From Terriglobus sp. RCC_193 (GTDB lineage Bacteria > Acidobacteriota > Terriglobia > Terriglobales > Acidobacteriaceae), in assembly GCF_041355105.1 (NCBI RefSeq), contig NZ_JBFUPK010000001.1, positions 1,736,001 to 1,800,000 on the forward strand: DNA of 64,000 bases. The letters are read 5' to 3'. The notes below the pieces were generated by a model that had not been told where the DNA came from, searched no databases, and saw nothing but the letters and a program-made list of their open reading frames with translations. Of this stretch, positions 9,117 through 30,574 are shown piece by piece. Each line of letters opens with the position of its first letter. The first letter of the stretch is position 1. Position numbers and translations under genes: made by a program.

Positions 9117-9191
9117 TGGAGCGGGAGACCGGGATCGAACCGGCGACATTCAGCTTGGGAAGCTGACGTTCTGCCACTGAACTACTCCCGC
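9117..9191 (-). tRNA. tRNA-Gly (anticodon CCC)
   Basis: On the minus strand the acceptor GCGGGAG (9191-9185) pairs with CTCCCGC (9127-9121). The anticodon stem TCAGC/GCTGA encloses TTCCCAA (anticodon CCC), and the T-arm has GGTTCGATCC. The 3' TCCA is encoded (9120-9117). Its 5' end overlaps one copy of a 29-bp repeat whose second copy lies at 27773. Confidence 0.96.
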
Positions 9192-9208
9192 TCAGTGAAG
9201 GCGATTAT
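9180..9208 (+). repeat. Left direct repeat of the glycan island, overlapping the tRNA-Gly 5' end
   Basis: These 29 bases recur at 27773-27801 in the same orientation with two mismatches. The first 12 bases belong to tRNA-Gly and the rest is its upstream flank. The two copies bracket 18.6 kb containing the whole glycan-utilisation locus. Confidence 0.75.
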
Positions 9209-9299
9209 AGCGCGACTGATCCGTAAGCGTCTTTGGGAAACGGACTCGTCGCGGGGCCCAAAGCCATTTGCCATTGATAGTAGCGATCCTGCTTTTTTC

Positions 9300-9329
9300 T
9301 TGACACGTTCAGCGGGCACCCCCTATAGT
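9300..9329 (+). promoter_or_regulatory. Sigma-70 promoter of the DUF5107/TPR operon
   Basis: TTGACA (9300-9305) and TATAGT (9324-9329) are separated by 18 bases, a near-consensus housekeeping promoter. A pair of operator-like palindromes follows immediately downstream (9338-9349, 9362-9373), so repression by blocking early elongation is plausible. Confidence 0.7.
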
Positions 9330-9337
9330 CAGCTAAC

Positions 9338-9373
9338 GGTAACGTACACGGTCATAGAATAATGTACGTTCCA
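9338..9373 (+). promoter_or_regulatory. Paired LacI-type operator candidates (sites A1 and A2)
   Basis: Site A1 GGTAACGTACAC (9338-9349) recurs exactly, on the other strand, at 17077-17088 ahead of the GH36 gene. Site A2 (9362-9373, core TGTACGTTCC) is a near-inverted copy 24 bases away, centre to centre. Both have the central CpG typical of LacI-family operators, and a LacI-family regulator is encoded 5 kb downstream. Confidence 0.55.
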
Positions 9374-9430
9374 ATAGATTCTGTCGAATTGGCTCAATCG
9401 ATTTTGTCTCTTGGGAAGGTCTCTGAATTC

Positions 9431-12400
9431 ATGACGTATCGGATCTCCTCCACTCAAGAGACGTCGCCCGTCTCTGTCACTCCGGGAAAGCTTCAATTGC
9501 CCACTGCGCCATCATCGGAGCAAGGCGAGGTGAAGGCATGGAGCGAGCCGGTGGACATGCTCACCTATCTGCCAGCTCCGCCAGACAAGAACCCACTGTT
9601 CCTGGAAAAGCGCGTGTATCAGGGCAGCAGCGGCCGCGTGTATCCCCTGCCGGTCATTGACTCTATCTCAACGAAGCCAGAGATGCGCCCTTGGCAAGCC
9701 GTTCACATAGAGAACGAGTTTCTCCGCCTGATGGTCATGCCGGAGATTGGCGGACGTATCCACATTGGTCTGGATAAGCGCACAGGCTACGATTTCTTCT
9801 ATCGCCAGAACGTGATTAAGCCTGCGCTCGTAGGGCTTGCAGGACCGTGGATTTCCGGCGGCGTCGAGTTCAACTGGCCGCAGCACCATCGTCCTGCCAC
9901 CTTTATGCCGGTGGAAGTCTCTATCGAACGATCTGACGATGGTTCGATCACCATCTGGTGCAGCGACCACGATCCCATGGCTCGCATGAAGGGCATGCAT
10001 GGTATCTGCCTTCATCCGGGCAAGGCCTATGTTGAGGTGAAGGTCCGTCTTTATAACCGCACGCAGGACACCCAAACGTTCTTGTGGTGGGCAAACGTAG
10101 CCACGCATGTGCACGAGAAATACCAATCATTCTTTCCGCATGACGTGCGATTTGCAGCGGACCATGCCAAGCGCGCCGTCACGGAATATCCGCTGAGCAA
10201 AGGCCATTACTATGGCGTGGATTACGGCGAACGCGCTCGCACGGGCGTCCCCACGGACGAACGCCCTTCACACTTTGTCCCCGATGGTTCGTATCCGCCG
10301 AACGACCTTGGCTGGTATGCGAACATCCCGGTTCCCACCAGTTACATGATCGTCGGTTCGCGCGAAGACTTCTTCGGGGGCTACGATCATGCCGCAGACG
10401 CCGGTACCGTAGCCTATGCGGACCATCATATTTCTCCTGGGAAAAAGCAGTGGACATGGGGCAATCACGAATTCGGGTATGCGTGGGATCGCAGCCTGAC
10501 AGATAGCGATGGTCCGTACATCGAACTCATGTCGGGCGTCTACACCGACAACCAGCCGGACTTCAGCTTTCTTGCTCCAGGGGAAACGAAAACCTTCAGC
10601 CAGTTCTGGTATCCGGTCAGTGCCATCGGCACACCGGATCTCGCGAATCTGGATGGAGCACTGCGTCTGGAAACCAATGCACACGACGTTACTGTTCACC
10701 TGCAGGTCACATCAGATCGTCCTTCAAGCAGAATTTCTCTGCTGCGTGAAGGGATAGAACTGGCAACCTGGGATGCTGACCTTTTGACACAGGAACCTCA
10801 TCATTTCCACACTGCCATCGACTGTGCCATCGATGCACTTGAGATTCGTGTCTCGCAGGCAGGCCACGTGTTCATGCGGTATGCCCCCACAGAAATCGGT
10901 CCTGTCGAGCAGCCTGATGAGGCCACGGAACCACCGCTGCCGCAGGACGTAACCAGCAGTGACGAACTTTTTCTGAATGGCCTCCATCTGGAGCAATATC
11001 GTCATCCCACGCGTACTGCGGAACCATATTGGCTTGAAGCCATTCGTCGCGATCCCGGTGACAGCCGTTCAAACCATGCGCTTGGTCGCTCCTACATGCG
11101 ACGAGGCGAATTCGACATCGCAGAGAGGTATTTGCGCACCACTATTGCCCGTTTAACCAGGCGCAATCCAAACCCGAGTGATGGTGAGCCTTACTACAAT
11201 CTCGGGCTTACGCTGCGATACCAGGGCCGATTCGACGAAGCCTATGACGCCTTTTACAAGAGCACATGGAATGCGGCGTGGCGCGGAGCTGGCTATCATC
11301 GGCTTGCCGAAACTGACTGTACACACAAGGAATGGACAAAGGCGCTGGATCACCTTGACCGTTCGTTGCTTGCCGACGGCGACAATTTGAATGCGCTTAA
11401 TCTGAAGGCTGTTGTGCTGCAGCGGTTGAACCGTTCCGGCGAGGCTGCGGCGCTCATTGCGCAGGTGCGCTCGCTGGATCCATTGGATGGGATGAGCCGT
11501 TTTCTGGAATCCGGACATGGACCAGCCAACGCACAAAACCAGATTGATATGGCGTTCGACTGGATGCGCGCAGGTCTGCTGGAAGAAGCTCTTCAGGCAA
11601 TCAACGAAGATGTTCCGGATCACTTTGATGGCGGCGCCACGCTTCGCCTCTATCTGCGTGCTGAGATTCTCCGTCAGCTTGGTCGCATAGACGAGTCCGC
11701 AGCGATGCGACAGCAGGCTGCTGCAGCCGATCCTTCTTATGTCTTTCCCAGTCGTCTGGAAGAGCTGCTGCTATTGGAACGTGCCATCGCAGAAAATCCT
11801 GCGGACGCACATGCACACTACTATCTTGGCAATCTTCTGTATGACCGCCGCCGTTACAACGAAGCGATGGCACACTGGGACCGCGCCACAGAACTGGCTC
11901 CCGAGTTCCCAACTCCGTGGCGCAATCTTGGCTTCGCACGCTTCAATGTGAAACACGATGCAGAAGGGGCCGCCGCCGCATTTGCACGCGCCCGTGCGCT
12001 TGCGCCGCACGATGCACGTATCGCATATGAGCAGGATCAGTTGTGGAAGCGCATTGGTTTCCCTCTGGAAGAGCGCCTGAAGAATCTTCTCGATCACACA
12101 TATCTGGTAGAGCAGCGCGATGACCTTTCCAACGAGTTAGCCACCTTGTTGAACAGCACTGGTCAACCTGCGCGTGCGCACGACCTGTTACTCAGTCGCA
12201 GCTTCGGTCCCTGGGAAGGCGGCGAAGGCCAGGTGCTGACGCAGTATGTCCGTTCCAACCTGCTGCTGGCACAACGAGCCCTCCATGACGGGAATGCTTC
12301 CGCTGCAGTTGCTCTACTGGAACTGGCGGCAAACCCACCGCAGAACCTGAGTGAAGCCAAGCACCTGTTAATGAATCTGAGCATGATTGATTACTGGATG

Positions 12401-12844
12401 GGCGTTGCACTGGCTGCTGCAGGAAATACGGCACGCTCCATAAGCGCTCTCGAACGAGCGGCCAATCAGAAGGGTGACTTTCAGCAGATGCAGGTGCAAT
12501 CCATCTCTGAAACCACATACTGGACCGCCATGGCTTTGCGCACACTGGGACGCGAACAAGAGGCGAGCAATCTTTTCCGCGCGATAGACGCTTATGCATC
12601 GAAGCTCGAGTCGGAAACACCGAAGATCGATTACTTCGCGACATCGCTTCCGGCAATGCTGCTCTTTGAGGAAGACCTGACGGAACGCCAGAACATCACG
12701 GCACGCTTTCTACACGCGCAGGCACAGCTTGGATTGCGCAACAAGCAGCAGGCAAAGCATCTTCTGGAAGAAGTGATCGCAAAGGATCGCAGCCACACTG
12801 GCGCGATTGATCTTCTCACGACACTTTCAGCGAAAGAAGGTTGA
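9431..12844 (+). CDS. DUF5107 domain protein with C-terminal TPR array
   Basis: The N-terminal part (about residues 30-380) reads as DUF5107, a galactose-mutarotase-like beta-sandwich (FLRLMVMPEIGGRIHIGLDKRTGYDFFYRQ, GPWISGGVEFNWPQHHRPATF, WWANVATHVHEKYQSFFPHDV), split here only for citation. The remainder (about 500-1137) is TPR (EPYYNLGLTLRYQGRFDEAYDAFYKS; AHYYLGNLLYDRRRYNEAMAHWDRA). I prefer ATG 9431 (GGGAAGG upstream) giving 1137 residues; ATG 9362 lies inside an operator site and lacks a ribosome site. There is no signal peptide, so it is probably cytoplasmic. It heads the plus-strand arm of the glycan locus and its stop overlaps the sugar-porter start region. It probably binds or acts on a carbohydrate; the reaction is unknown. 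Confidence 0.8.
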   Translation: MTYRISSTQETSPVSVTPGKLQLPTAPSSEQGEVKAWSEPVDMLTYLPAPPDKNPLFLEKRVYQGSSGRVYPLPVIDSISTKPEMRPWQAVHIENEFLRLMVMPEIGGRIHIGLDKRTGYDFFYRQNVIKPALVGLAGPWISGGVEFNWPQHHRPATFMPVEVSIERSDDGSITIWCSDHDPMARMKGMHGICLHPGKAYVEVKVRLYNRTQDTQTFLWWANVATHVHEKYQSFFPHDVRFAADHAKRAVTEYPLSKGHYYGVDYGERARTGVPTDERPSHFVPDGSYPPNDLGWYANIPVPTSYMIVGSREDFFGGYDHAADAGTVAYADHHISPGKKQWTWGNHEFGYAWDRSLTDSDGPYIELMSGVYTDNQPDFSFLAPGETKTFSQFWYPVSAIGTPDLANLDGALRLETNAHDVTVHLQVTSDRPSSRISLLREGIELATWDADLLTQEPHHFHTAIDCAIDALEIRVSQAGHVFMRYAPTEIGPVEQPDEATEPPLPQDVTSSDELFLNGLHLEQYRHPTRTAEPYWLEAIRRDPGDSRSNHALGRSYMRRGEFDIAERYLRTTIARLTRRNPNPSDGEPYYNLGLTLRYQGRFDEAYDAFYKSTWNAAWRGAGYHRLAETDCTHKEWTKALDHLDRSLLADGDNLNALNLKAVVLQRLNRSGEAAALIAQVRSLDPLDGMSRFLESGHGPANAQNQIDMAFDWMRAGLLEEALQAINEDVPDHFDGGATLRLYLRAEILRQLGRIDESAAMRQQAAAADPSYVFPSRLEELLLLERAIAENPADAHAHYYLGNLLYDRRRYNEAMAHWDRATELAPEFPTPWRNLGFARFNVKHDAEGAAAAFARARALAPHDARIAYEQDQLWKRIGFPLEERLKNLLDHTYLVEQRDDLSNELATLLNSTGQPARAHDLLLSRSFGPWEGGEGQVLTQYVRSNLLLAQRALHDGNASAAVALLELAANPPQNLSEAKHLLMNLSMIDYWMGVALAAAGNTARSISALERAANQKGDFQQMQVQSISETTYWTAMALRTLGREQEASNLFRAIDAYASKLESETPKIDYFATSLPAMLLFEEDLTERQNITARFLHAQAQLGLRNKQQAKHLLEEVIAKDRSHTGAIDLLTTLSAKEG

Positions 12845-12846
12845 GC

Positions 12847-14280
12847 ATGCAAGGACCGGCCATCCACACGACAGAATCTTCGATCCTTGTGCCGGCGGAA
12901 CGCAGCTTCTACGTGTGGATCATTGCGGTAGTGGCGGCGCTTGGTGGACTTCTTTTCGGTTATGACTGGGTTGTCATCGGAGGCGCGCGAGAGTTCTATG
13001 AGATGTACTTCCATCTCGTGTCCCCCTCGCTGATCGGCTGGGTGAACAGTTGCGCTCTTGTCGGGTGCCTCGCAGGCTCGCTTGCCGCTGGTTCCCTTGC
13101 GGAACGACTCGGACGCAAGCCCGTTCTACTTGTTGCGGCCGTGCTGTTCGCAATTTCTTCTGCACTCACCGGATGGTCTTACGTTCTATCCGCTTTCATC
13201 GCATGGCGCATCGTTGGCGGTATTGCTATCGGCCTCGCCTCCAATGTTTCGCCGCTTTACATCGCGGAGATCAGCCCGGCGGACCTTCGCGGCAGGTTGG
13301 TAAGTCTCAACCAGTTTGCAATTGTCATCGGCATTCTGCTGGCACAGATTGTGAACTGGCGCATCGCTCGTCCTGTTCCTTCGGGCTTGAGTGCAGCTCA
13401 GCTGATGGCCTCATGGAATGTTCAGTATGGCTGGCGATGGATGTTTACAGCAGTGGTAATCCCATCACTGGTCTTCACTGTGGCATCGCTCGTCATACCG
13501 GAGAGTCCGCGTTGGCTGTTGACTCGCGGACGAAGCAAAGAAGCACTGGAAACGCTGACGAAAATCGGTGGCAACTCCTATGCAGATGCCGAATGTTTCA
13601 ATATCCAGACAGTCATCAACGCAGAGAGTGCCGCGGGACGTTCCACCTGGGGCGAACTTCTGCGAAGACCTGTGCGCCGCATCGTCCTCATTGGTATTGC
13701 GTTGGCCGTATTGCAACAGTGGACGGGTATCAACGTCCTCTTCAACTACGCAGCAGACGTTTACCGGAGCGCAGGCTATGGTGCGAATGACATCCTGCTG
13801 AACATCGTCATCACAGGCACAATCAATTTGGTATTCACTATCATTGCGATGCTTCTGGTGGATCGCGTAGGACGCCGAGGGTTGATGCTGCTGGGGTGTA
13901 TCGGTATCAGCACCTCACACCTGGCATGTTCATTTGCCTATGCAAACCACTGGCCCGCCCTAACAATCCTGATTCTGACGCTGAGTGCTATCGGTTGTTA
14001 TGCTCTGACACTTGCACCGGTAACGTGGGTCTTGATCGCAGAAATTTTCCCGAATCGCGTTCGTTCCCAAGCTGTCTCGATAGCAGTCAGCGCTCTGTGG
14101 CTTGCTTCATTCGCCCTGACGTATACCTTTCCATTGTTGAACAAGGCATTGGGAACGGGCGGAATCTTCCGTACCTATGGCGTGATCTGCCTCTTGGGTT
14201 GGGCACTGGTGTTCTTCTTTGTACCTGAAACCAAGGGACGCAGCCTGGAACAGATCGAGCGGGCACTGGCACGACAGTGA
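12847..14280 (+). CDS. MFS sugar porter
   Basis: This protein of about 477 residues has 12 predicted membrane segments and the sugar-porter signatures. These are GGLLFGYDWVVIGG in helix 1, RLGRKP in loop 2-3, PLYIAEISPADLRGRLVSLNQ, PESPRWLL before the central loop, DRVGRRGLML, and PETKGRSLEQIE near the C-terminus. Such proteins move monosaccharides with protons or sodium across the inner membrane. ATG 12847 has AGAAGG 8 bases upstream; a TTG at 12841 overlapping the previous stop is an alternative start. It is cotranscribed with the DUF5107 gene, so the cargo is probably a sugar released by the island's hydrolases, with galactose and fucose the leading guesses. Confidence 0.92.
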   Translation: MQGPAIHTTESSILVPAERSFYVWIIAVVAALGGLLFGYDWVVIGGAREFYEMYFHLVSPSLIGWVNSCALVGCLAGSLAAGSLAERLGRKPVLLVAAVLFAISSALTGWSYVLSAFIAWRIVGGIAIGLASNVSPLYIAEISPADLRGRLVSLNQFAIVIGILLAQIVNWRIARPVPSGLSAAQLMASWNVQYGWRWMFTAVVIPSLVFTVASLVIPESPRWLLTRGRSKEALETLTKIGGNSYADAECFNIQTVINAESAAGRSTWGELLRRPVRRIVLIGIALAVLQQWTGINVLFNYAADVYRSAGYGANDILLNIVITGTINLVFTIIAMLLVDRVGRRGLMLLGCIGISTSHLACSFAYANHWPALTILILTLSAIGCYALTLAPVTWVLIAEIFPNRVRSQAVSIAVSALWLASFALTYTFPLLNKALGTGGIFRTYGVICLLGWALVFFFVPETKGRSLEQIERALARQ

Positions 14281-14430
14281 GAACTATCCTGTGGCGAACC
14301 AGACCACATCTGAAAGAAAACGGATTTCTACACGTCCCTATCGCTCTGCAGAAATTTCGGGATATCTCCTCTAACGGAGTGAGACAATGTGTCCCATCCC
14401 GTCAATCGCCAGGGTGAAGCAAGGAAGAGC

Positions 14431-15519
14431 ATGTCTGAATCAAAGGGAACAGCCGGAATCAAAGAGATTGCGCGAGCACTGAATGTGTCCATCGGCACGG
14501 TGGACCGCGCATTGCATGGCAGAACCGGCGTTAGCGAAAAGACGAAGACGCGCGTGCTGCAGATGGCAGAGCGGATGGGATACACACCCAACCTTGCGGC
14601 ACAAGCTCTGAAACTGAATCGCAAACTTTCCATTGCAGCAATTCTCCCGAAGCACATCTCACATTTCTTCGATCCTGTACGTGCCGGCATTCGTGCCGCA
14701 GCAGCCGCAACGGTTGGCGTTCAGGTTTCCCTGGAGTTTCACGAATATCCGCGGCTGGGCGTGGGAGATGTGGAAGCGTTTGAACGGGCCCTGAAGCGAC
14801 ACTATGACGGCATCATCTTTCTGCCAGGCGACACGCGCAAGTTTGACTCGCTGATCCGTACGCTCTCACGCAATGGCACTGCCATGATGTGCGTGGGAAG
14901 CGATGCGCCAAACACCGACCGCATGGGATCCGTGGCAGCGCACGCCTACGTCAGCGGCTCCATCGCAGCAGAGTTGTTGGCAATGAAGCTGCCACAGCGG
15001 TCGAACGTGGCCGTCTTCAGTGGCGATCTATACACCATGGACCACGCGGAAAAACTACGTGGTTTTGCAGCTACGCTTGCGGTACAGGCTCCGCACCTGA
15101 TGCTGCTGCCAGCATTGGAAAGTCATGAACAACCCAGGCAGGCGTACCAGCAGGCGCTTACGCTGATGCGCAGCAAAGACCATCCGCAGGGGATCTACCT
15201 AAGCACAGCAAACAGCATGCCCGTACTCAAGGCGCTTGACGAATTGAAATTGCTTGGCAAGGTGCAGATCGTCACAACGGATCTTTTTCAGGAGCTGATC
15301 CCTCTTATCGAGTTCGGCAAGGTGATGGCCACCCTCTACCAGCGACCCTATACCCAGGGTAAGGTGGCGTTCGAAGCACTGCTCCGCTATCTGCGCGGTG
15401 ATGATAAATCGCACCCCTACGTGCGACTCGCACCGCACGTCATCTTTCGCAGCAATCTTCCGCTGTTCTCCAGTCACATCGTCGATACCGATGAAGAGAT
15501 CGAAAGCGAATTGCCATAA
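14431..15519 (+). CDS. LacI-family transcriptional regulator
   Basis: ATG 14431 is chosen because AAGGAAG precedes it and the helix-turn-helix then lies at the usual place (residues 8-60: IKEIARALNVSIGTVDRALHGR, followed by the hinge GYTPNLAAQALK, parts cited separately). A GTG at 14389 would add 14 residues. Residues 65-340 form a periplasmic-binding-protein-like sugar-sensing domain (LSIAAILPKHISHFFDPVRAG, GIIFLPGDTRKFDSLI). The length, 362 residues, is slightly long for LacI members. It is the only regulator in the glycan locus and is the obvious candidate to bind the repeated CpG-centred palindromes at 9338, 9362, 16884, 17077, 27540 and 27617. The ligand is unknown; a galactose- or fucose-containing sugar is likely. 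Confidence 0.92.
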   Translation: MSESKGTAGIKEIARALNVSIGTVDRALHGRTGVSEKTKTRVLQMAERMGYTPNLAAQALKLNRKLSIAAILPKHISHFFDPVRAGIRAAAAATVGVQVSLEFHEYPRLGVGDVEAFERALKRHYDGIIFLPGDTRKFDSLIRTLSRNGTAMMCVGSDAPNTDRMGSVAAHAYVSGSIAAELLAMKLPQRSNVAVFSGDLYTMDHAEKLRGFAATLAVQAPHLMLLPALESHEQPRQAYQQALTLMRSKDHPQGIYLSTANSMPVLKALDELKLLGKVQIVTTDLFQELIPLIEFGKVMATLYQRPYTQGKVAFEALLRYLRGDDKSHPYVRLAPHVIFRSNLPLFSSHIVDTDEEIESELP

Positions 15520-15592
15520 CGTTCAGCTTGCGTCCTGCCGAGCTCTCGTTGTGTCTAGCATTCTGCAAGCCATGCGTAGGTGAAAGCTCTCC

Positions 15593-16543
15593 ATGCCATC
15601 TCAGGTCCATCGCTGCATCCTGCAATCGGATCAACTCGTAATCGAAGTGCGGCCTCGCGAAGGTGGCCGCATTGCGTCGTTACGCAGCCTCGACTCCGGG
15701 CTGGAATTTCTCATGCAATCGCCACGAAACGAAACGATACCAACTCCCAACCTGAATGCGGATTTTCGCAATGGCCCGTGCGCGGGCATTGAGGAGTGCC
15801 TCCCCACCGTAGCCCGTTGCGATGCTTCTACCGAGGGAGGGCCCGCACCCGATCATGGCGATTTCTGGCAGTTGCCATGGCATGTGGAACACATGGACGA
15901 CTGCAGTGCCATTCTTTCCGCAGACGGCTTCAGCCGCACGCTGCGTTTCACAAAGCATCTGCTAGTCACCGGCGATACGCTCCGCGTGGAATATTCTGTG
16001 ACGAACATCCGCACCACTTCGCAATCGTTTCTCTACGCGTGCCATCCACTGTTTGCTGTGGACGAAGGGGATCTCATCATGCTGCCAAGCGACATCCGTT
16101 CGTTGCGGCTTGATTATTCGCGCGGCAATAGATTAGGAAAGCGCGGCGATGTGATTTCATGGCCCGTTACGGCATCGGGAATCAAGCTGGACCAGGCTGG
16201 CCGCGCAGACGTCGGACACGCCGATATGTTCTACACGGAACGCGTAAACAGAGGAGTATGCGGTATCCTTCGCTACTCCACGGGGCAAATACTTGAAGTT
16301 CTCTTCGATCCAGCCAGGCTTCCCTATCTTGGAATCTGGCTTTGCTATGGTGGATGGCCGGATGATGCAACAGAGCAGCTCCAATACGCTGTCGCCCTGG
16401 AACCCACCACGTCGCCTCACAACAGCCTGAATACCGCGCAGCAGGCACAAGCAGCGATGTCCCTCCAGCCAGGAAAAGTATTCCGTTTTGCTATCGCCTT
16501 TCGTGTGCGCCAAGCTCCCTCTGCACTCCTGGCCACGGACTAA
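15593..16543 (+). CDS. Aldose 1-epimerase-like protein (galactose-mutarotase fold)
   Basis: The 316-residue protein shows the beta-sandwich pattern of the aldose-epimerase superfamily: VEVRPREGGRIASLRSLDSG-type opening near residues 17-37, HGDFWQLPW at about 87, LRVEYSVTNI near 130, and YACHPLFAVDEGD with a conserved His near 148. It has no signal peptide. Members interconvert sugar anomers or bind sugars. It follows the LacI gene by 73 bases on the same strand, fitting a role in cytoplasmic handling of sugars freed by the locus. The exact substrate is unknown, and the DUF4432-type branch of the superfamily is an alternative label. Confidence 0.75.
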   Translation: MPSQVHRCILQSDQLVIEVRPREGGRIASLRSLDSGLEFLMQSPRNETIPTPNLNADFRNGPCAGIEECLPTVARCDASTEGGPAPDHGDFWQLPWHVEHMDDCSAILSADGFSRTLRFTKHLLVTGDTLRVEYSVTNIRTTSQSFLYACHPLFAVDEGDLIMLPSDIRSLRLDYSRGNRLGKRGDVISWPVTASGIKLDQAGRADVGHADMFYTERVNRGVCGILRYSTGQILEVLFDPARLPYLGIWLCYGGWPDDATEQLQYAVALEPTTSPHNSLNTAQQAQAAMSLQPGKVFRFAIAFRVRQAPSALLATD

Positions 16544-16602
16544 GAAGCCTCCCTTCGGGTGACTTCTCTTGCTTCTTCAGAGTGAAGATTAGTGCGTCTC
16601 CG

Positions 16603-16830
16603 TGAGTACGAGCCCGGAGTAACTGCATCCAGCTTGATGAAATCGACGCCGCAGACGAGAACAGAGCGACAACCGAATCGATGTGCTCCTGCGCGCCGGG
16701 CTTCGAGAAATCGACCTTGTCGTGATACGAGGAGGGTAGGTTGCCCGCAAAGGCATTGCCCTTGGCCAAGGGTGCGCACCACGATATCCTGCATGTGATA
16801 CGGCGTCCCCAGGATTAGATAGGTCTGGAA
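16603..16830 (-). pseudogene. Decayed GH27-like alpha-galactosidase fragment
   Basis: Read on the minus strand with two frame changes, this gives a continuous glycosidase segment. LGTPYHMQDIVVRTL (from about 16810) is followed after a +1 shift near 16767 by AKGNAFAGNLPSSYHDKVDF and SKPGAQEHIDSVVALF, and after a compensating -1 shift near 16655 by GVDFIKLDAVTPGSYS. The last block is the region carrying the nucleophile Asp in melibiase-type GH27 enzymes. Nothing homologous continues on either side, so about 75 residues remain of a protein normally several hundred long. It lies in the 590-base gap ahead of the intact GH36 gene and is best explained as a remnant of an earlier alpha-galactosidase. 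Confidence 0.7.
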
Positions 16831-16882
16831 TCAATTCTTTCGGTTCGCATAAACTCTGCGATCAGAAGCGGTTTCCGCATAT

Positions 16883-16897
16883 CGTGTACGAACACGA
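16883..16897 (+). promoter_or_regulatory. LacI-type operator candidate (site B1)
   Basis: CGTGTACGAACACGA is nearly palindromic around a central CpG and recurs exactly at 27616-27630 upstream of the TonB receptor. It is 193 bases from site B2 at 17077, suggesting a pair that could bridge by DNA looping. It lies between the GH27 remnant and the GH36 gene. Confidence 0.6.
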
Positions 16898-17088: not shown

Positions 17089-17133
17089 GAAAGTCTCTCG
17101 CGCAACATGAAGGGCTATCGTCCAGGAGCATTC

Positions 17134-19362: not shown

Positions 19363-21824
19363 GTACCCGTCGTGAATTCCTCGCAGGGGCAGCTGCAGTA
19401 GCAGCCGTAACAGCCGGAAGGCCTCTCCATGCATCGGTATCTTCTACCGCAAACCCGACGACTACGCTCTGGTATCGCCAGGAAGCGAAGAATTGGCTGG
19501 AGGCACTTCCACTAGGCAATGGCAATCAAGGCGTCATGATTTTCGGTGGCGTAACAACAGAGCGACTTGCGCTATCGGACTCCACCGCCTGGTCCGGTGC
19601 GCCGAACGAACACTCTGTTAATCCAGAAGCAAAGGCGCATGTTGCTGAGATTCGTCAGCTACTGTTTGATGGCAAATACATTGAAGCGACGCAACTTAGC
19701 CGCAAATACATCGCAGGCAACGCTACGAATTTCGGAACGAACCTGCCCCTGCCCGATTTACTCATCGACTTCGAAACGCCATCTCATCCCATTACGGAAT
19801 ACCGCCGCGCTCTCACTCTGGACGATGCAGTGGCAGGAGTATCCTTCCAATCCACAGGACAGCAATACGCTCGCGAAGCTTTCGCATCACATGCACATCG
19901 ACTTATCGTTTATCGCATTGCGCATCCTGCATCGTTCCACATTCACTTTGCCGCATCACAACTTCCCACCACGGTACACACCGAAGACAATCGAATGGTG
20001 TTGCGCAGCCGTGCCGTGGAAACGAAGCACAGCGATGGCAAGTCTGGTGTCAATTTCGAAATTCATGTTGAAGTCATCCCGCAAGGTGGGCATGTCGAGC
20101 CAAACCCCAATGGTATTGAGATAAAGGAAGTACACACTGCCACAGTCCTCATCGCAATCGCGACATCCTTCCACGGCAACGATCCGAATGCTGTCTGTCA
20201 ACAAACGTTGGCAGCCGCGCGCGATGTGTCATACGACAAGCTGAAAGAAGCACACATCGCAGATTACGCGCCGCTCTTCCGAAGGATGTCCTTCCATCTC
20301 GGTGACGATACAAACGCAGACAGTCCGACTGACTTGCGCAGGAACGCAGTGAAGAAAGGTGCCAGCGATCCCGCATTGCATACGCTCTTTTTTCAGTTTG
20401 GGCGCTATCTTACAATCGCCGGATCACGTGCTGACTCGCAGCTTCCACTGGCACTGCAGGGCATTTGGAATGACGGGCTTGCTGCAGCCATGGGATGGAC
20501 TGATGACTTCCATTTGGACATCAATACACAGCAGAATTACTGGGCCGCGGAAGTCTGCAACTTATCCGAATGCCAGATGCCGCTGTTTCGCTTTCTTGAG
20601 TTCCTGCGAATTGCAGGTCAAAAGCCGGCCAGGGAGATGTACGACGCTCCCGGCTGGATTGCACACACTGTCACCAACCCGTGGGGCTACACCGCGCCGG
20701 GGGATGTGGGATGGGGTAACGTTCCAGTTGCAGGTGTCTGGCTTTCGCTACAACTGTGGGAGCACTACCGTTTCACCAACGACACAGTATTCCTACGACA
20801 GACAGCTTTTCCTATCCTTCGTGATGCAGCCGAATTCTTCCTGGCATACATGACTACAGAACCTGCGCATGGATGGCTGGTGACAGGACCATCTGAATCA
20901 CCAGAAAATGCGTTCAAAGATCCGCATGGCGGTAACGCCAGCGAGAGCATGATGCCCACAATGGATCGTGTGATGACCTTTGCGCTCTTCGATATCTGCG
21001 AGCAGGCTTGCAAGGTTCTCAATTCCGACATGTCACTCGTCGAACGAGTCAAGGTGGCAAAAGCTAAGTTGCCTCCACTCCAGATAGGAAGCCACGGACA
21101 ATTACAGGAATGGCTGCACGACTTTGAGGACGCCTATCCGAATCATCGCCACACATCGCATCTGACGTCTCTCTACCCGGAGTCGCAAGTGGATGTACGA
21201 GCAACCCCCTCGTTAGCGCATGCCGCGGAGGTAACAATTCAGCGCCGTGTCGCAGCACCGGATTGGGAGCAGACGGAATGGGGCCGCGCCAATTTCATGG
21301 CCTTCTATGCGCGCCTGTTGAAGGGTGACGAATCGGTTCACTATCTTAACGATTTGCTCTCCCACGCCACCGCCGATAATTTGCTCACATTTTCTCAAGG
21401 AGGCGTCGCCGGAGCCGAGCAGAACATCTTTGCGATCGATGGTAATACTGCCGGAACAGCAGCGATTGCAGAGATGCTGCTTCAATCGCAACGAGGTGAG
21501 ATTGAATTGCTACCTGCACTGCCAGCAGCATGGCCCAGCGGCGAAGTACGCGGTCTCTGCGGACGAGGAGGTTATATCGTCGACATTGCATGGCGTAACA
21601 GTGTGCTTGTCAGCGCAAGCATTCGTAGCCGCTTTTCTGGAGCGATTCCCATTCGCTATCGTGAATCAGTGAAAACGTTCCGTATGACCGCTGGCTCCAC
21701 ACTGCGGATCCGCCCAGCAATGTTCGATAAAGAGAAGAGCACGGCTAAAGCCGCCCTCTTACTTTGCAGGAAGGAAACGGATTGCGGCTCCGCCACCAGG
21801 CGCAAGGTTCAGGTTGAGTATTGA
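19359..21824 (+). CDS. GH95 family alpha-L-fucosidase (or alpha-L-galactosidase), Tat-exported
   Basis: I use TTG 19359: AAGGAG (19346-19351) sits 7 bases upstream, it overlaps the GH36 stop (TTGA), and it yields a twin-arginine signal (STRREFLAGAAAVAAVTAG). An upstream ATG at 19281 lies deep inside GH36 and spoils the signal. The 821-residue protein shows GH95 hallmarks: LWYRQEAKNWLEALPLGNG, GGVTTERLALSDSTAWSG, the active-site strand DINTQQNYWAAE (about residue 390), HRHTSHLTSLYPESQV, and the C-terminal LLPALPAAWPSGEVRGL. The family hydrolyses alpha-1,2-L-fucose or alpha-L-galactose by inversion. Its last 22 codons overlap the convergent GH97 gene. Confidence 0.92.
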   Translation: MSTRREFLAGAAAVAAVTAGRPLHASVSSTANPTTTLWYRQEAKNWLEALPLGNGNQGVMIFGGVTTERLALSDSTAWSGAPNEHSVNPEAKAHVAEIRQLLFDGKYIEATQLSRKYIAGNATNFGTNLPLPDLLIDFETPSHPITEYRRALTLDDAVAGVSFQSTGQQYAREAFASHAHRLIVYRIAHPASFHIHFAASQLPTTVHTEDNRMVLRSRAVETKHSDGKSGVNFEIHVEVIPQGGHVEPNPNGIEIKEVHTATVLIAIATSFHGNDPNAVCQQTLAAARDVSYDKLKEAHIADYAPLFRRMSFHLGDDTNADSPTDLRRNAVKKGASDPALHTLFFQFGRYLTIAGSRADSQLPLALQGIWNDGLAAAMGWTDDFHLDINTQQNYWAAEVCNLSECQMPLFRFLEFLRIAGQKPAREMYDAPGWIAHTVTNPWGYTAPGDVGWGNVPVAGVWLSLQLWEHYRFTNDTVFLRQTAFPILRDAAEFFLAYMTTEPAHGWLVTGPSESPENAFKDPHGGNASESMMPTMDRVMTFALFDICEQACKVLNSDMSLVERVKVAKAKLPPLQIGSHGQLQEWLHDFEDAYPNHRHTSHLTSLYPESQVDVRATPSLAHAAEVTIQRRVAAPDWEQTEWGRANFMAFYARLLKGDESVHYLNDLLSHATADNLLTFSQGGVAGAEQNIFAIDGNTAGTAAIAEMLLQSQRGEIELLPALPAAWPSGEVRGLCGRGGYIVDIAWRNSVLVSASIRSRFSGAIPIRYRESVKTFRMTAGSTLRIRPAMFDKEKSTAKAALLLCRKETDCGSATRRKVQVEY

Positions 21825-23762
21825 AGCAGACGTGACGGAAACCTTGCGAATGTTGACTTGCTTCGGTTGCGTTGCCGCGTCCGTCCCATCCTCATACACC
21901 TCAGCGATATAGTTGCCGGTGCCTAAAAACTTCAGCGGTACCTTCAGTTCTCGGGGTGTCCAGTTCGTCATGCTGCCCAGGTACCACTCATTGCCGTGAC
22001 GACGCGCAACGATGGAGTACTCACTAACGTCTCCCCCCACGACATGTGTTTCATCCCATGCCGTGGGAACATCCTTCAGAAACTGGAAAGCGGCAGCGGC
22101 TTCTCCCTCATAGTTCTGCGGGCTGTCGGACACCATCGGGACTGGGTTTTCATACACAACATACAGAGCAAGCTGTTGCGCTCGGGTCCCCATCACCTGT
22201 GGCGAGGCATTACGGGCAACGAAGCTATCTTCTGTCTGACTGTCGAATGCGCCCGCGGTGTAGTCCATCGGGCCTGCAAGAGCGCGTGTCCATGCGAAGA
22301 CAGATCGATCCACTGGGCTGTCGCGACGGCCCACCTTGTTGTTCTCAAGCCCCAGCACAGCCTCATAGCTCATCACATTGGGATAAGTGCGCATGATGCC
22401 CCACGGCGTATGGCATCCATGAAAATCCACCATCAGATGATGAGCAGCAGCTTCGCGTGCCACATCGTAAAAGAACTGAATGCCTTCTTGATCGTCACGG
22501 TTTACAAAGTCAATTTTCATACCCGCCACGCCCCACTTCTCATACAGCGGAAAGGCTTCCTTCATCTGTTCCATTACTGCAGCGGAATAAAGCCAGATCC
22601 ATACCTTTACATGCTTCGTGGCGGCATACTTCACCAGTTCCGGAATGTCGACTTTCCCATTCATCTTTGTGATGTCGCCACCGGACCAGCCAGCGTCGAG
22701 GAAGAAATAGGGGAAGCCTGACTTAGCCGCAAAGTCCACGTAATACTTCATCGTCTCTGTAGTGAATTGCGCATTGCCAGATTCGCCCTTTGCGTTCACG
22801 TTATCAACCCACCAGTTCCACGAAGCCTTTCCCGGTTGGATCCAGCTTGTATCCTTCACCCGGCTGGGTGGATTCAGGTCTGTTTGCAGATTGCTCTCCA
22901 GCAGTTCTCCCGGCGTATCGGCAATGCCCAGCACGCGCCACGCTGAATGATGCGGTAGCGTTCCGGTAACCGCAAAGGATGGATCATCCCACCGCGGCGA
23001 CAGTTTTACGCGAAGCATATGTCCTGCCCAGCTGCCGGTTGGATTCGTGACGTAGGCCGAGCTATTCCCTTCCAGGTCAGCTTCCATTAAGGAAATCCAT
23101 GCATCGCCCGGTTGGTGCAGCAATGTAGGCATGCCGATAAGGAAATGGCTGGCAACGCCACCCTGATTACTCAATGCAGAAAGGTTATAGCGCACATATT
23201 CGCTCTCATAACTGGAACGATAATTCGGCAGCGCCAGCACCCATGCTGTATCGTCCTGGCTGAAGCGAAACTCCGTCTCTTCATTCCGCAAACGAAGTTC
23301 GGTATTGCCACGTGGCGGAGCAGGCAACACATAACGAAAAGCGATACCACTGTTATATGCCCGCGCTTCCACAACCAGACTGCGCCCGTTCCCATCATGT
23401 TCTCGTACCGTCAGCGAAAGCGCGTTATAGGCATCGTGAACATGGCTTACCTTCGAAAACATCAGCGGATAGTCATCGATCGCGCTCGACGATTTTGTAT
23501 CCGCGATCGTTACGTTCTCTCCCAATGGAAGCTGATCATCCAATGCAAGTCCCATTGCGGAAGCATCAATGATCGGCTTTCCCTTAAACGTAACTGCATA
23601 CTGCAATTGTCCGCTTCCCTGCGTTGCGAGTGGCTTCGATGTGTTCACAGAAAACGTCATAACCAATCGCCCATCGGGTGACTGCAAACGCTTGTCCTGG
23701 GCACGTGTTTGCTGCAATGCACTCAAGGCAATCAATCCAATCAGAATCCAGTGTTTCCTCAT
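21759..23762 (-). CDS. GH97 retaining-type glycosidase, probable alpha-galactosidase
   Basis: The start at 23762 has GAGAGGA six bases upstream and gives a signal peptide (MRKHWILIGLIALSALQQTRAQ). The 667-residue protein has the GH97 N-terminal beta-supersandwich (to about 270), a catalytic barrel and a C-terminal beta domain. Asp418 in GVAGMKIDFVNRDDQ takes the place of the nucleophile of retaining GH97 members, and Glu473 in VMSYEAVLGLE fits the acid/base 55 residues later; inverting (SusB-like) members lack that Asp. This favours alpha-galactosidase over alpha-glucosidase. It lies downstream of the TonB receptor on the same strand, a usual pairing of outer-membrane import and periplasmic hydrolysis. 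Confidence 0.92.
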   Translation of the reverse strand: MRKHWILIGLIALSALQQTRAQDKRLQSPDGRLVMTFSVNTSKPLATQGSGQLQYAVTFKGKPIIDASAMGLALDDQLPLGENVTIADTKSSSAIDDYPLMFSKVSHVHDAYNALSLTVREHDGNGRSLVVEARAYNSGIAFRYVLPAPPRGNTELRLRNEETEFRFSQDDTAWVLALPNYRSSYESEYVRYNLSALSNQGGVASHFLIGMPTLLHQPGDAWISLMEADLEGNSSAYVTNPTGSWAGHMLRVKLSPRWDDPSFAVTGTLPHHSAWRVLGIADTPGELLESNLQTDLNPPSRVKDTSWIQPGKASWNWWVDNVNAKGESGNAQFTTETMKYYVDFAAKSGFPYFFLDAGWSGGDITKMNGKVDIPELVKYAATKHVKVWIWLYSAAVMEQMKEAFPLYEKWGVAGMKIDFVNRDDQEGIQFFYDVAREAAAHHLMVDFHGCHTPWGIMRTYPNVMSYEAVLGLENNKVGRRDSPVDRSVFAWTRALAGPMDYTAGAFDSQTEDSFVARNASPQVMGTRAQQLALYVVYENPVPMVSDSPQNYEGEAAAAFQFLKDVPTAWDETHVVGGDVSEYSIVARRHGNEWYLGSMTNWTPRELKVPLKFLGTGNYIAEVYEDGTDAATQPKQVNIRKVSVTSASILNLNLAPGGGAAIRFLPAK

Positions 23763-23893
23763 TACATGTCCTCTCACGTGCAGTTATCGCATATGTGAAG
23801 TAAGTGCAGTTACAGAAACGGACTGCATCCCACCATAAAGAACGGCAGGACGCAGACCCGATACGTCTTGTCCCAAGTTGGAGGTACTCCTGC

Positions 23894-26800
23894 TTAGAAG
23901 TAATACTTCGCCGCAAGCTGAATAAAGCGAGCATCCGGTGTGTTTGCGCCGAAGTTCTTCGGCCCGTCGATACGTCCGCCTGATACCGGATCATCATTCT
24001 GGACGCCTGGATTACCCCAGGTCGGGTGGTTGAATACGTTGAAGATATCGGCGCGCAACTGGAGACTCTGCTCCCGCCAGATGGTGAAGTTCTTGAACAG
24101 CGATACGTCGTTGCGCCAGTAGCCAGGGCCATAAACGATGTTCTGCTTACCGCCAAGGAACTGTGCCACCAGGTTCGGATCAGTCACACCCGATGCATAA
24201 CGACAGGCCACGCCGTTCTGCACCGTACCAACAGGCGATCCCGGAGCGCAGATCAGGTTGCCCGCGTTCACCATTCCCATCGGCTCCGCCAGCGAACACG
24301 GGTTATACCAGTGCGCCTTGGTCTTCACCTGTGTGGGACAAGGTGTAGTGCTGCTCCCCAGTGTTCCCGGAATCCCTGTATCTCCTGTGCGGAAGGGATC
24401 GGTCACGAGTACCGGACGAGAACCAGCACCAGCGACATTCGATGTGGTTGTTCCCATACCGAAGGGTGTTCCTCCCTGTGCAGTAAAGGTGTCGCTGATC
24501 TCCCATCCTCCCAGCACAAGATCCATTGCGCGATTGCCCTTCATGTACTTCCGTCCACGTCCAAATGGCAGCTCATAGTAACCATTCAGTGTGACGCGAT
24601 TGCGCACGTCGTACGACGAGTTGGTGTATTCGAACTTAGGCCCACCAAGCAGGTAATACGTACGGGTGCCAACAGCAGTGGATAAACCGCCCGAAGAACT
24701 GGTGTTGTCCATCGCATGGCCCCAGGTATAGGTAGCCAGGAAGTTCAACCCATTGGAAAAGCGCTTTTCCAGTTTGGCCTGCAGCGAGTTGTAACTGCTG
24801 TAGCCCGTGTACACCGTCGCGCCAATACCACCTAACGTCGGGAAGGGCTGATACGGTTGAGTATTCAATCCCGCCTGATAAAGCGCAACGTTCGAATTTT
24901 GCGCAAAGTAGGTTGTAAGATGCCGCGATTCGTTGCCAACATAAGCAATCGAGCTGACCAGGTTATTGGACAGTGCATACTGCACTGACAGGCTGTAGTT
25001 CTGGGTATATGGCGTCTGCAGGTTTGCAGATGTCGAATGGAACCCCGGAAACCCTGTTGCAGCAGTAACAGGTGTCAGTGTCGGCAGTCCTGATTCCAAT
25101 GTGTAGGGGAATGGTGTCGAGCAGTTTCCTACAGTACAGCTTTGCTCAGGGAAGCTCTGGGAAAGGCTATATGGATAGTTCGCTCCCAGGTTTCCGTTGC
25201 CGTTGCTCTCCAGGCCACCGTAGAAGATACCGACACCGCCGCGAAGGACAGTTCTCTCATTTGCTTTGTATGAGAATCCAAAACGAGGAGCGAAGTTCGT
25301 CTTCTGCGAAGTGACCAGGCGGTTGTTTCCTACATACTGAATCTGGACATTGTTTGCAGCCAGCGTGTTGATGAATTCCGGCGCAAGCGCCACGCTCTGC
25401 TGCGACGTTGGCAACTGGAATACACCAGCTCCAGTTCCCGCTCCAACTGCCGTGGGAATGAAATTCGCCTGACGGTCACGCGACTCTGCCAGTGGCTGGT
25501 AAAAGTCCCAGCGCAAGCCAATGTTAAGCGTTAGGTTTGGTGTAAGGCGCCAGTCGTCCTGCGCATAGCCTGAGTTGTACCACTGCTGATCATGAATGCC
25601 TGGGGCATTCGTGATGTAAGCACTTGCTACACGTCCTGAGAGGAAATCCGCGACGCCGGAACTCAGCGAAGTTCCTGGAATTTTCGTGTAGTGGCCGTTG
25701 AAAGTGAAGTTTCCACGCGGACTGTCCGCATAGGTGTAATAGAAACGAACATTCTGGAACGCCACACCAAACTTCATGGAGTGCTTTCCTTTGATGTACG
25801 TCAGGTTATCCAGAATCTGATACACATTCTGCGACTCGCGCGATGTGCCCGTGGAACCGAATTGCGACAGGCCGACAGCACCCCCGATCTGCACCAGCGG
25901 GAGACCGCAGAATCCAGGAACGCACGGAACATTTCCAAACCCGAGCGAGCTGGCAATGGTTCCATTGAAACCATTCGGTGTGTCGAAGTTAAAGACACCC
26001 CAGTTATAGCCAAAGCGGAATTCGTTAATCAACGATGGCGTAAAGGTATGTGTGTAAGAGCCCATACCGTTCTCAGCAAGGTTACTCTGGATGTATCCAC
26101 CATAGCCGCTACCGTCAAGAACAGGTCCAAGAGGAAGTGCGCTCTTCACGATCTGATGGACATAGCTGAAGCGCCCGTACACCAGGTCCTTGGGACTAGC
26201 GTTCCAGTCCACACGCTGATCGAACTGCGTGGTACTGTCCAGGCGCGGCACATTCTGAACGTAGTTCTGCTGTAGCCCCGTTCCGTTATTCGGAGTCGGA
26301 TACATATTCAAAATGCGCAGCGCGTTCTGATCGATATCTGCGGTGCACATTACATTTTCTGCGTTTCCGCACGGAGCACCCAAAGCCACTGTCCCATTGG
26401 TATTCGGCTGCTTCAGGTGGATTGGCTGGTTGAAGCCGCTGACGGTTGGATTCAGCAACTCCGTAAAGTTACCCTGCCGCTCCAACGCAGATGGCACGTT
26501 CAGGCGGTTCACCTGTGCGTTGGTAATACGGTTTGCCTCAACGTCACCGAAGTAGAACAGCTTGTTTTTGATCAGCGGGAACCCGATGGTTGCACCGAAC
26601 TGGTTCTGATGAAAGCGTGGAACGGTAAGGGCATTCCAGTCCTTCGCATTCATCTTGTCGCTACGAAAGTATTCCCAGAAATTGCCGTGAATCTGGTTCG
26701 TTCCGGACTTGATGCTGGCATTCATCACAGCGCCGGCAGAGTGACCAAACTCTGCGGAGTAATTGCTCGTCTGGATGTTGAACTCCGCCAGCGCATCCGG

Positions 26801-27481
26801 TGGTGGACGCTGCACGAACGTGGAGCCATTCAGAAAGTCCACCAGGTTCGTGTTGTTATCAACACCGTCAAGGATGAAGTTGTTCTGCGTAGCGCGCTGA
26901 CCGTTGGCAATGAAATCTCCCTTACCCGATCCGCGTGTGTTGCCAAGGGAAGGAGTAACGCCATTGGTTAGCTGTGCAATGAACACCCAGTTGCGGCCGT
27001 TGAGCGGAGTTTCATTGATCGTCTTCGCTTCCACAACCTGGCCGACGGCACCGGTTTGCGTCTCAAGAAGAGGAGGAGCCGTCGAGACGGTCACCGTTTC
27101 CGACGCTCCGCCCACCTTCAGCGACAGGTTGACTCCCACACGAGCCTGGATGTCTACCTTGATGTTTTGTTGCGTGGTCGTCGCAAATCCGGCAGCAGTC
27201 GCGCTGACCGTATAGCTGCCGATCTTCACCGGCTGGAACGTGTAAAGCCCTGACGAATTGGTTGTTTGCGTAAGTGCAAGTCCGGTATCAACTGCGGTCA
27301 GAGTAACCGTCGCCCCCGGGATGACTTTCCCCGAAGAGTCGAACACGATTCCCGTAACGGCTCCCTGGTCTACCTGCGCCAGGAGCCTTCCCGCAGGAAA
27401 GAGAAGAACAATGAACGCAAGCAGCAATCCCCAATACTTGCTATGCGCCGCACCGCACCTCTGAGTTGTCAGTGTCTGCAT
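23894..27481 (-). CDS. TonB-dependent outer-membrane receptor, Oar-like with carboxypeptidase-regulatory domain
   Basis: The 1195-residue protein has a signal peptide ending near residue 35 (FPAGRLLAQ), then a carboxypeptidase regulatory-like beta domain (about 38-125: GAVTGIVFDSSGKVIPGATV, GSYTVSATAAGF). A plug follows at about 130-250 (PLNGRNWVFIAQLTNGV, NNFILDGVDNNTN), then a long beta-barrel. The C-terminus ends in the aromatic residues YYF, as outer-membrane barrels do. This Oar-like layout is expanded in Acidobacteriota. GAGAGG precedes the ATG. The gene is first of a minus-strand pair with GH97 and its promoter carries two operator-like palindromes. It probably imports the oligosaccharide the hydrolases attack; the ligand is inferred only from context. 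Confidence 0.92.
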   Translation of the reverse strand: MQTLTTQRCGAAHSKYWGLLLAFIVLLFPAGRLLAQVDQGAVTGIVFDSSGKVIPGATVTLTAVDTGLALTQTTNSSGLYTFQPVKIGSYTVSATAAGFATTTQQNIKVDIQARVGVNLSLKVGGASETVTVSTAPPLLETQTGAVGQVVEAKTINETPLNGRNWVFIAQLTNGVTPSLGNTRGSGKGDFIANGQRATQNNFILDGVDNNTNLVDFLNGSTFVQRPPPDALAEFNIQTSNYSAEFGHSAGAVMNASIKSGTNQIHGNFWEYFRSDKMNAKDWNALTVPRFHQNQFGATIGFPLIKNKLFYFGDVEANRITNAQVNRLNVPSALERQGNFTELLNPTVSGFNQPIHLKQPNTNGTVALGAPCGNAENVMCTADIDQNALRILNMYPTPNNGTGLQQNYVQNVPRLDSTTQFDQRVDWNASPKDLVYGRFSYVHQIVKSALPLGPVLDGSGYGGYIQSNLAENGMGSYTHTFTPSLINEFRFGYNWGVFNFDTPNGFNGTIASSLGFGNVPCVPGFCGLPLVQIGGAVGLSQFGSTGTSRESQNVYQILDNLTYIKGKHSMKFGVAFQNVRFYYTYADSPRGNFTFNGHYTKIPGTSLSSGVADFLSGRVASAYITNAPGIHDQQWYNSGYAQDDWRLTPNLTLNIGLRWDFYQPLAESRDRQANFIPTAVGAGTGAGVFQLPTSQQSVALAPEFINTLAANNVQIQYVGNNRLVTSQKTNFAPRFGFSYKANERTVLRGGVGIFYGGLESNGNGNLGANYPYSLSQSFPEQSCTVGNCSTPFPYTLESGLPTLTPVTAATGFPGFHSTSANLQTPYTQNYSLSVQYALSNNLVSSIAYVGNESRHLTTYFAQNSNVALYQAGLNTQPYQPFPTLGGIGATVYTGYSSYNSLQAKLEKRFSNGLNFLATYTWGHAMDNTSSSGGLSTAVGTRTYYLLGGPKFEYTNSSYDVRNRVTLNGYYELPFGRGRKYMKGNRAMDLVLGGWEISDTFTAQGGTPFGMGTTTSNVAGAGSRPVLVTDPFRTGDTGIPGTLGSSTTPCPTQVKTKAHWYNPCSLAEPMGMVNAGNLICAPGSPVGTVQNGVACRYASGVTDPNLVAQFLGGKQNIVYGPGYWRNDVSLFKNFTIWREQSLQLRADIFNVFNHPTWGNPGVQNDDPVSGGRIDGPKNFGANTPDARFIQLAAKYYF

Positions 27482-27538
27482 GGTGGCCTCTCAAAGTGAA
27501 CGCCTGCCGCGTCTGGACAACCATTCACAGTGGCAAAC

Positions 27539-27566
27539 CGTATACGTTAACGAACTTTTATGTCAA
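27539..27566 (-). promoter_or_regulatory. TonB receptor promoter overlapped by operator candidate (site C1)
   Basis: On the minus strand TTGACA (27566-27561) is followed after 16 bases by TATACG (27544-27539). The -10 lies inside GTATACGTTAAC (27540-27551), a CpG-centred palindrome of the same type as sites A and B. A repressor here would directly exclude RNA polymerase. Confidence 0.6.
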
Positions 27567-27615
27567 TAAAAATCCATCTATCTTTAAATTCCTAGGAAAT
27601 AGACTATTCCGCTAA

Positions 27616-27630
27616 CGTGTACGAACACGA
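27616..27630 (-). promoter_or_regulatory. LacI-type operator candidate (site C2)
   Basis: These 15 bases are identical to 16883-16897. The site is 77 bases upstream of C1 (centre to centre), so it may be the auxiliary operator of the TonB-GH97 promoter. Confidence 0.6.
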
Positions 27631-27889
27631 TTTTGTAGCTATTTCTTAAAATCTCTCCGGGCATCCATGTCCCGCACGGCCCTGCAGCATACAACTCACA
27701 GGTGTGCGTGCTCGCACCCGGCACCACGCTGGACGATTCCCTTGGGCGATAGATGCGGACGTTCCGTCGCCTAACTCCTCCCGCTCAGTGAAGGCAATTA
27801 TCCCTGCCTTGTCGCAAAAGCTCTCATGCCCCGCAGACCGATGCCGATAAGCCCGTTTGTACGGCGCAAGAACCGCACCCGGAGAGCCT
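27631..27889. other. Junction between glycan island and chemotaxis operon
   Basis: No ORF here is convincing. The stretch contains the right repeat, weak tRNA-Gly-like sequence (27730-27792), and a GCCGATAA octamer (27843-27850) resembling the -10 of sigma-28 promoters; the nearest A-rich -35 candidate is spaced too far to be convincing. Confidence 0.4.
27773..27801 (+). repeat. Right direct repeat of the glycan island, partial tRNA-Gly copy
   Basis: It matches 9180-9208 at 27 of 29 positions in the same orientation. It reproduces the first 12 bases of tRNA-Gly (minus-strand sense) and the flank upstream of it. The rest of the tRNA is not intact here, though weak similarity may persist down to about 27730, so this is a tRNA fragment and not a gene. 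Confidence 0.75.
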
Positions 27890-30558: not shown

Positions 30559-30574
30559 TCACGGAGAAACGATC

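Follow-up and report, generated by a model that had tools for sequence, protein, structure and literature searches.

A probable integrase-less glycan island left by 5'-half integration at tRNA-Gly(CCC) in Terriglobus sp. RCC_193

Genomic islands seated at tRNA genes usually duplicate the 3' end of the tRNA and carry an integrase inside. An element described by Zhao and Williams in 2002 reportedly integrates in the 5' part of a tRNA. Here, we analyze a glycan-use locus in a 64,000-nucleotide stretch of Terriglobus sp. RCC_193 (contig NZ_JBFUPK010000001.1, positions 1,736,001 to 1,800,000; the whole stretch is referred to as the window), which lies between an intact tRNA-Gly(CCC) and a partial second copy of that gene's 5' end. 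Background on tRNA-borne islands and integrative elements goes back to Williams 2002, as cited in PMC6563490 and PMC8371274. In the excerpts of these papers considered here, pTN3-like integrases target the 5' part of a tRNA, the restored tRNA being expressed from the promoter of the element (PMC8371274), and the thaumarchaeal CalSub-E1 is a 5'-half tRNA integrator (PMC6563490); the literature passages describe this polarity as infrequent, and an excerpt of PMC9897764 treats tRNA fragments left behind by integration. Among the literature titles searched (titles only), there was no report of 5'-half tRNA integration in Acidobacteria.

Like tRNA-borne islands, the window holds cargo between a full tRNA and a partial copy in direct orientation; unlike them, with their duplicated 3' end and internal integrase, it has a duplicated 5' end and no integrase was found. 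With the 5'-half integrators (pTN3-like elements, CalSub-E1, and the Zhao and Williams 2002 element) it shares the tRNA 5' part as target, but it differs in having a native-type promoter on both copies and no remaining recombinase gene. We argue that the locus is probably an integrase-less island left by 5'-half integration at tRNA-Gly(CCC). The features that define its ends are as follows.

9117-9191, minus strand: intact tRNA-Gly, anticodon CCC (ARAGORN and Rfam, one tRNA)
9180-9208, plus strand: left repeat copy, comprising tRNA nucleotides 1-12 and 17 bp upstream
27752-27784, minus strand: decayed, displaced tRNA-Gly 5' half, nucleotides 33-1
27773-27801, plus strand: right repeat copy, 27/29 identical to the left, with the promoter part at 27785-27801

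This repeat pair was first noticed by a model from the letters alone (the sequence-only reading), and both its match at 27 of 29 positions in the same orientation and the overlap of the left copy with the first 12 bases of the intact tRNA, whose 5' end is position 9191, were borne out. A TATAAT -10-like box lies on the minus strand at 9204-9209. That reading had said that a 29-mer common across the genome would speak against it; in a search that ignored the 2 differing bases and tolerated ≤3 mismatches, the 29-mer occurs at two places only in the 4.2-Mb genome, and its inner 18-mer (≤3 mismatches) has 2 matches in the window versus 0.12 expected from shuffles. BLAST lengthened the pair to 50 bp at 82%, further into the tRNA. 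Nucleotides 13-33 of the tRNA agree with the right copy at 14 of 21 positions, a score reached by 9 of 37,043 island 21-mers (P = 2.4e-4), and the likeness fades close to the anticodon. Since the similarity runs to about nucleotide 33, the right copy amounts to a 5' half in decay that retains the -10 promoter region and not merely a 12-base fragment; it had been called a tRNA fragment without the rest of the gene, which stands for the 3' half and needs refinement for the front half. Thus, one intact and one partial tRNA copy stand in direct repeat, and a displaced 5' half that runs as far as the anticodon region, as left by 5'-half integrators, is present, though decayed. Recombination between tRNA-Gly genes, suggested earlier as an alternative, is unlikely because the duplication also takes in 17 bp upstream of the tRNA that are absent from the genome's other tRNA-Gly genes; matches to those genes set in at the tRNA start or no more than 3 bases from it.

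Comparison with related genomes independently supports the glycan locus as one discrete unit. By the left neighbor protein, the closest of 19 genus genomes (own genome included) are two that we call G008 (89%) and G005 (85%). Both carry relatives of the GH95 protein at 84%, about 160 and 212 kb, respectively, from their tRNA-Gly, and around them the locus is collinear with the window at ~83% (alignments of ≥300 bp and ≥75% retained), with reciprocal best matches for 8/8 block genes in each genome.

9209-9287, no strand: 79 bp from the left repeat to the start of block homology, matched by own-genome DNA only among 277 fetched loci
9288-27635, no strand: glycan block, 18.3 kb, collinear with G008 C2:33867-51839 and, from 9288 to 27590, with G005 C1:867185-885112

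In the G008 alignment, 79 bp separate the left repeat from the start of block homology, and 116-137 bp lie between the end of that homology and the right repeat; the G005 alignment puts the right end 45 bp further in (182 bp from the right repeat). The block ends just upstream of its outermost genes. That homology stops just inside both repeats speaks, independently, for the repeats as the boundaries of the unit that moved. Furthermore, when partly overlapping blocks from three genomes were tested for shared words of ≥12 bp in a range reaching 700 bp outward and 300 bp inward from each end, an 18-bp direct repeat was found near the ends of this block only, the others having ≤13 bp (12 tests).

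At the tRNA-Gly itself, G005 and G008 hold different DNA. In each, an additional ~1.3 kb separates the tRNA from the left gene, and the match to the window breaks off at the 5' end of the tRNA and restarts at window ~35353-35356; the intervening DNA amounts to 15.7 kb in G005 and 74 kb in G008. The block is therefore missing from the same site in its close relatives, which do not keep the window's gene order across both repeats; a shared gene order there was what the sequence-only reading had said would speak against an island. Because the block is collinear with loci elsewhere in these two genomes, which hold other DNA at the tRNA, the island structure is supported. Since CheA of the chemotaxis cluster right of the repeats has no match in G005 or G008, the variable region extends over 9.2-35.3 kb, with the repeats bracketing its left 18.6 kb.

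Across the family, tRNA-Gly(CCC) is a recurrent 5'-half integration target. We searched 300 family genomes with a 27-nucleotide tRNA-Gly 5' half (≤1 mismatch), which matched in 110 of them, and fetched all 14 genomes with at least two copies. One copy lacks the 3' half in 11 of the 14 (G195, G224, G278, G246, G140, G155, G200, G293, G144, G163, and G255; L308-L340); of the remaining three, G238 and G016 end at contig ends and G218 has two full copies on separate short contigs. Ten of the displaced halves depart from the tRNA within the anticodon loop, right after CAGCTTC in 7/11 and right after CAGCTTCCCAA in G224, G155, and G200; that of G278 has substitutions from nucleotide 28 onward. Where both copies share a contig, they are 57.0 (G195), 10.1 (G224), 23.2 (G278), and 52.6 kb (G246) apart. 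Open reading frames (ORFs) within 3.5 kb on the element side of the intact copy were listed for eight genomes, usually with one ORF scanned per genome; G140 and G144 had no ORFs in that range, and G293 and G001 fell outside the listing. Four of the eight (G195, G246, G224, and G200) have a Phage_integrase protein above the Pfam cutoff, head to head with the intact tRNA, and G155 has one below the cutoff beside it; the ORFs scanned in G278, G163, and G255 were not integrases. A 168-aa ORF near the contig-end copy in G293 weakly resembles the G001 integrase (E = 1.7e-6) and has no Pfam family. By BLAST, the integrases form two groups, G195/G246/G001 at 35-53% and G224 with G200 at 48%. Elements with tyrosine recombinases thus use the tRNA-Gly 5' half as an integration site in this family. 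The sequence-only reading had treated duplication of the 5' end, as opposed to the usual 3' end, as an anomaly; the 5' end is indeed the one duplicated, and the polarity recurs at tRNA-Gly in the family.

In G001, a genome of the same genus, a conjugative-type element of 60 kb splits the same tRNA-Gly(CCC) at the anticodon arm (L091-L094; G001 C28:476152-535988). Its genes include those for a tyrosine integrase, a TrwC relaxase, a coupling protein, and proteins resembling VirB4 and TraG. The element brings a complete tRNA-Gly of its own, and the 5' half that it left, which has a native-type promoter, lies next to the integrase. The element is like the window in its target and in this displaced half; it differs in having integrase, relaxase, and coupling protein, in breaking the tRNA and bringing a separate complete tRNA-Gly instead of restoring it, and in the position of the integrase beside the displaced half. 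A tRNA allele identical to the tRNA-Gly of this element was found in G007 (L088:13357-13431), beside orthologous neighbor genes.

The closest match to the window island is the 23.2-kb interval of G278, which has metabolic-type cargo, a direct repeat of the 5' half plus upstream DNA (about 60 bp, including 51 bp of exact upstream identity), and no integrase among the 10 ORFs scanned (not all its ORFs); within the fetched stretch, the one match resembling an integrase (E = 0.008) falls beyond the limits of the interval. It differs in that its upstream DNA is element-type and its repeat is longer and less decayed. In G224, L312:5983-15365 is a 10-kb element at tRNA-Gly with an integrase, a Prim-Pol, and a phage capsid protein; we take it to resemble a phage satellite.

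Element-type DNA precedes the intact tRNA in G195, G224, G246, G155, and G200, and tandem GGNNAGTAAG-like repeats upstream are common to G195, G163, G144, G255, and G140, with a variant in G246. The displaced half has a native-type promoter in G224, G155, G200, and G001 and element-like DNA upstream in G195, G278, G140, and G144; the latter suggests layered insertions. In the window, DNA upstream of both copies is native-type and resembles that of G009, G002, and G018 and of the G001 fragment.

The block is not a recent arrival from the lineages of its relatives. Over genes compared as reciprocal best ORFs in the fetched 400-kb stretches (≥150 aa, ≥60% identity, and ≥50 four-fold sites; the rest dropped), four-fold-site identity of the block to G005 and G008 is 0.537 and 0.548, versus 0.593 for 68 and 0.601 for 62 other genes (Mann-Whitney P = 0.040 and 0.023). 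Because the block is slightly more diverged at silent sites (0.54-0.55 versus 0.59-0.60 elsewhere), recent exchange with, or acquisition from, these lineages is rejected, and the block dates to the species split or earlier. Between G005 and G008 the block stands at 0.776 versus 0.682 over 105 other genes, closer but not significantly so (P = 0.069). A plasmid search for the locus returned 81 records, all with GH95 relatives below 60% identity; the G001 integrase had no plasmid match, and two exact-pattern scans found no attachment core in viral contigs.

We propose that the 18.3-kb glycan-use locus was inserted as one unit at tRNA-Gly(CCC), on its 5' side, with the two 29-bp copies as the presumed ends of the target duplication and the tRNA left intact on the left. 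The right copy would then be the native 5' half, displaced together with its promoter and subject to decay once the 3' half was gone. A recombinase like the family's tyrosine recombinases may have acted here, its gene since lost or acting from elsewhere. An intact tRNA and a decayed front half around sugar genes are the expected scar of insertion into this unusual (front) side.

Several results weigh against this account. What argues most against a straightforward instance of the family's elements are native-type promoters on both copies, the lack of the element-end motif TGGATAGTAAG in the window, and the lack of an integrase match. In G224, G155, and G200, the native-type promoter stands at the displaced half only; here, the DNA upstream of the intact tRNA is native-type as well, so that an element-supplied promoter on the restored tRNA, as in G195, G224, G246, G155, and G200, is not what we find. 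A tblastn search with the integrases of five relatives detected no integrase relic in the island, and there is none among the eight block proteins (Pfam) or, at the tRNA-Gly island, among 10 of 13 genome matches listed; the sequence-only reading had likewise noted no integrase. Comparison with relatives, which it had proposed, yielded no simple empty site with a single repeat copy, the sites in G005 and G008 being occupied by other inserts and no additional strain of the species having turned up; scans with CheA for such a site gave no close relative either among the 80 matches listed (≤55%, best segment; the best included Acidobacteria-labelled records) or among 120 family genomes (≤71%). Its suggested check of codon use and GC gave a codon distance of 0.166 for the block versus a flank-subset null mean of 0.138 and maximum of 0.266, which is not foreign, and a lower GC3 (0.596 versus 0.667). 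The foreign composition of tRNA islands is therefore missing, and recent acquisition of foreign DNA is not indicated, as codon use is not foreign and the block is no younger than the species split. At the amino acid level, the block is not set apart from other genes (P = 0.47 and 0.32). Lastly, mismatches between the copies are uneven, 2/29 versus 7/21 (Fisher P = 0.025, with the split picked post hoc), and so the duplicated core may be 29 bp only. In sum, the island at a tRNA that was first suggested stands as a discrete unit with other DNA at its site in G005 and G008, and no empty site, foreign codon use, or recombinase gene was found.

The decay of the right copy could also reflect two steps, in which an older integrase element, since gone, displaced the 5' half and the block later replaced or entered it by ordinary recombination, the repeat not being its carrier. 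We consider this account rather unlikely, although the layered insertions suggested in G278, G195, G140, and G144, where both copies have element-like upstream DNA, would fit it. So would G008, which amid other cargo retains an element-end motif (GGATAGTAA, beginning 46 bp upstream of its tRNA) and a weak 45-aa integrase-like match near the tRNA (E = 5e-5, four-sequence search). However, the block ends within ~140 bp of both copies (182 bp in the G005 alignment) with no recognized element remnant between, and the DNA upstream of the intact tRNA is native-type, not element-type.

Improbable, in our judgment, is a relocation of the locus inside the genome by chromosomal rearrangement or illegitimate insertion, with a ~50-bp target duplicated in repair and no site-specific recombinase. 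The same locus does lie elsewhere in G005 and G008 at core-like divergence, and, compared with other members of the genus, this lineage has an inverted segment close to the tRNA. Nevertheless, G005 and G008 share the inversion and have no second 5' half in their fetched 400-kb stretches, the tRNA fragment being found here only; the inversion therefore did not make the fragment and is rejected as its source. The break also falls in a part of the tRNA, its 5' half, at which integration has recurred across the family. The reading of the repeat as a chance match or as one common in the genome, for which its shortness is the sole argument, is for practical purposes refuted by the two genomic places, the 0.12 matches expected, and the continuation of similarity into the tRNA.

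Returning to integration at the tRNA 5' half, a more specific version may be advanced tentatively: the glycan locus could be a recombinase-less cassette moved in trans between tRNA-linked hotspots by tRNA-Gly(CCC) 5'-half integrases, such family elements repeatedly swapping the DNA upstream of the tRNA (an integrase gene stands head to head with it in at least four genomes), so that a host tRNA would be driven from the promoter of a mobile element. Tying a sugar-use locus to tRNA-linked variable sites makes gain, loss, and relocation of such genes traceable as events. The pattern is wider than this locus, with a displaced tRNA-Gly 5' half in G001 and 11 multi-copy genomes of 300, several with an integrase beside the intact tRNA. 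An infrequent integration polarity thereby becomes testable in bacteria, including the takeover of host tRNA promoter control by mobile DNA.

The cargo and its right flank comprise the following genes; the left neighbor of the interval encodes a cyclophilin-type protein (Pfam).

9362-12844, plus strand: DUF5107 and TPR protein (Pfam)
12841-14280, plus strand: sugar porter, MFS (Pfam)
14389-15519, plus strand: LacI-family regulator (Pfam)
15593-16543, plus strand: aldose-1-epimerase-like protein (Pfam)
17008-19362, plus strand: GH36 alpha-galactosidase family protein (Pfam)
19281-21824, plus strand: GH95 family protein (Pfam)
21759-23777, minus strand: GH97 family protein (Pfam)
23894-27481, minus strand: TonB-dependent receptor type outer-membrane protein (Pfam)
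27857-35287, plus strand: chemotaxis cluster (CheA, CheW, PAS/MCP, CheB, and CheR), outside the repeats
35372-36355, plus strand: OB-fold/HD protein, first gene of the conserved right flank

Pfam agrees with the earlier account of gene content for the porter, LacI regulator, GH36, GH95, GH97, and TonB-type receptor. A dead GH27 gene, also listed there, found no confirmation: two pieces of 16520-17040 gave no GH family match, and the sole match of 16500-17050 among the 277 fetched loci was to DNA of the window itself; the pieces tested are short, and a relic may exist. Between the repeats and the block, the left and right unique arms have no 7-mer in common, and the right arm has one 20-bp match, in L084. 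A 13-mer at 9233-9245 (minus strand) matches the tRNA anticodon core at 11/13 positions, one of four non-self sites in 64 kb; its significance is doubtful (20-base test, P = 0.20), and it was not used.

The chemotaxis cluster beside the right repeat was either gained separately or lost from the relatives. In G003, G004, G006, G007, G010, and G018, the window's 4.0-7.9 kb segment (4036-7860), whole or in part, is inverted directly beside the gene at 35372 (window 35353), accompanied by the tRNA-Gly (9117-9191) in G004, G006, and G007; the other arrangement is common to G000, G005, and G008. A 33.6-kb block, 91% identical between G008 (C2:225664-259272) and G005 (C1:798208-831814), lies ~22 kb from tRNA-Gly in the former and adjoins the conserved tRNA-Lys block in the latter, and is another relocation between variable sites. 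Just past tRNA-Ala(CGC), window 313-469, the window has 79 bp in place of the roughly 52 kb of G005 and 62 kb of G008, each of which shows an integrase match close to the tRNA, and the window genome looks like an empty site there. Finally, operator-like sequences containing CGTGTACG occur in opposite orientations at both ends of the glycan block (window 9333-9352 and 27612-27629) and, read by eye, are candidate sites of its LacI regulator.

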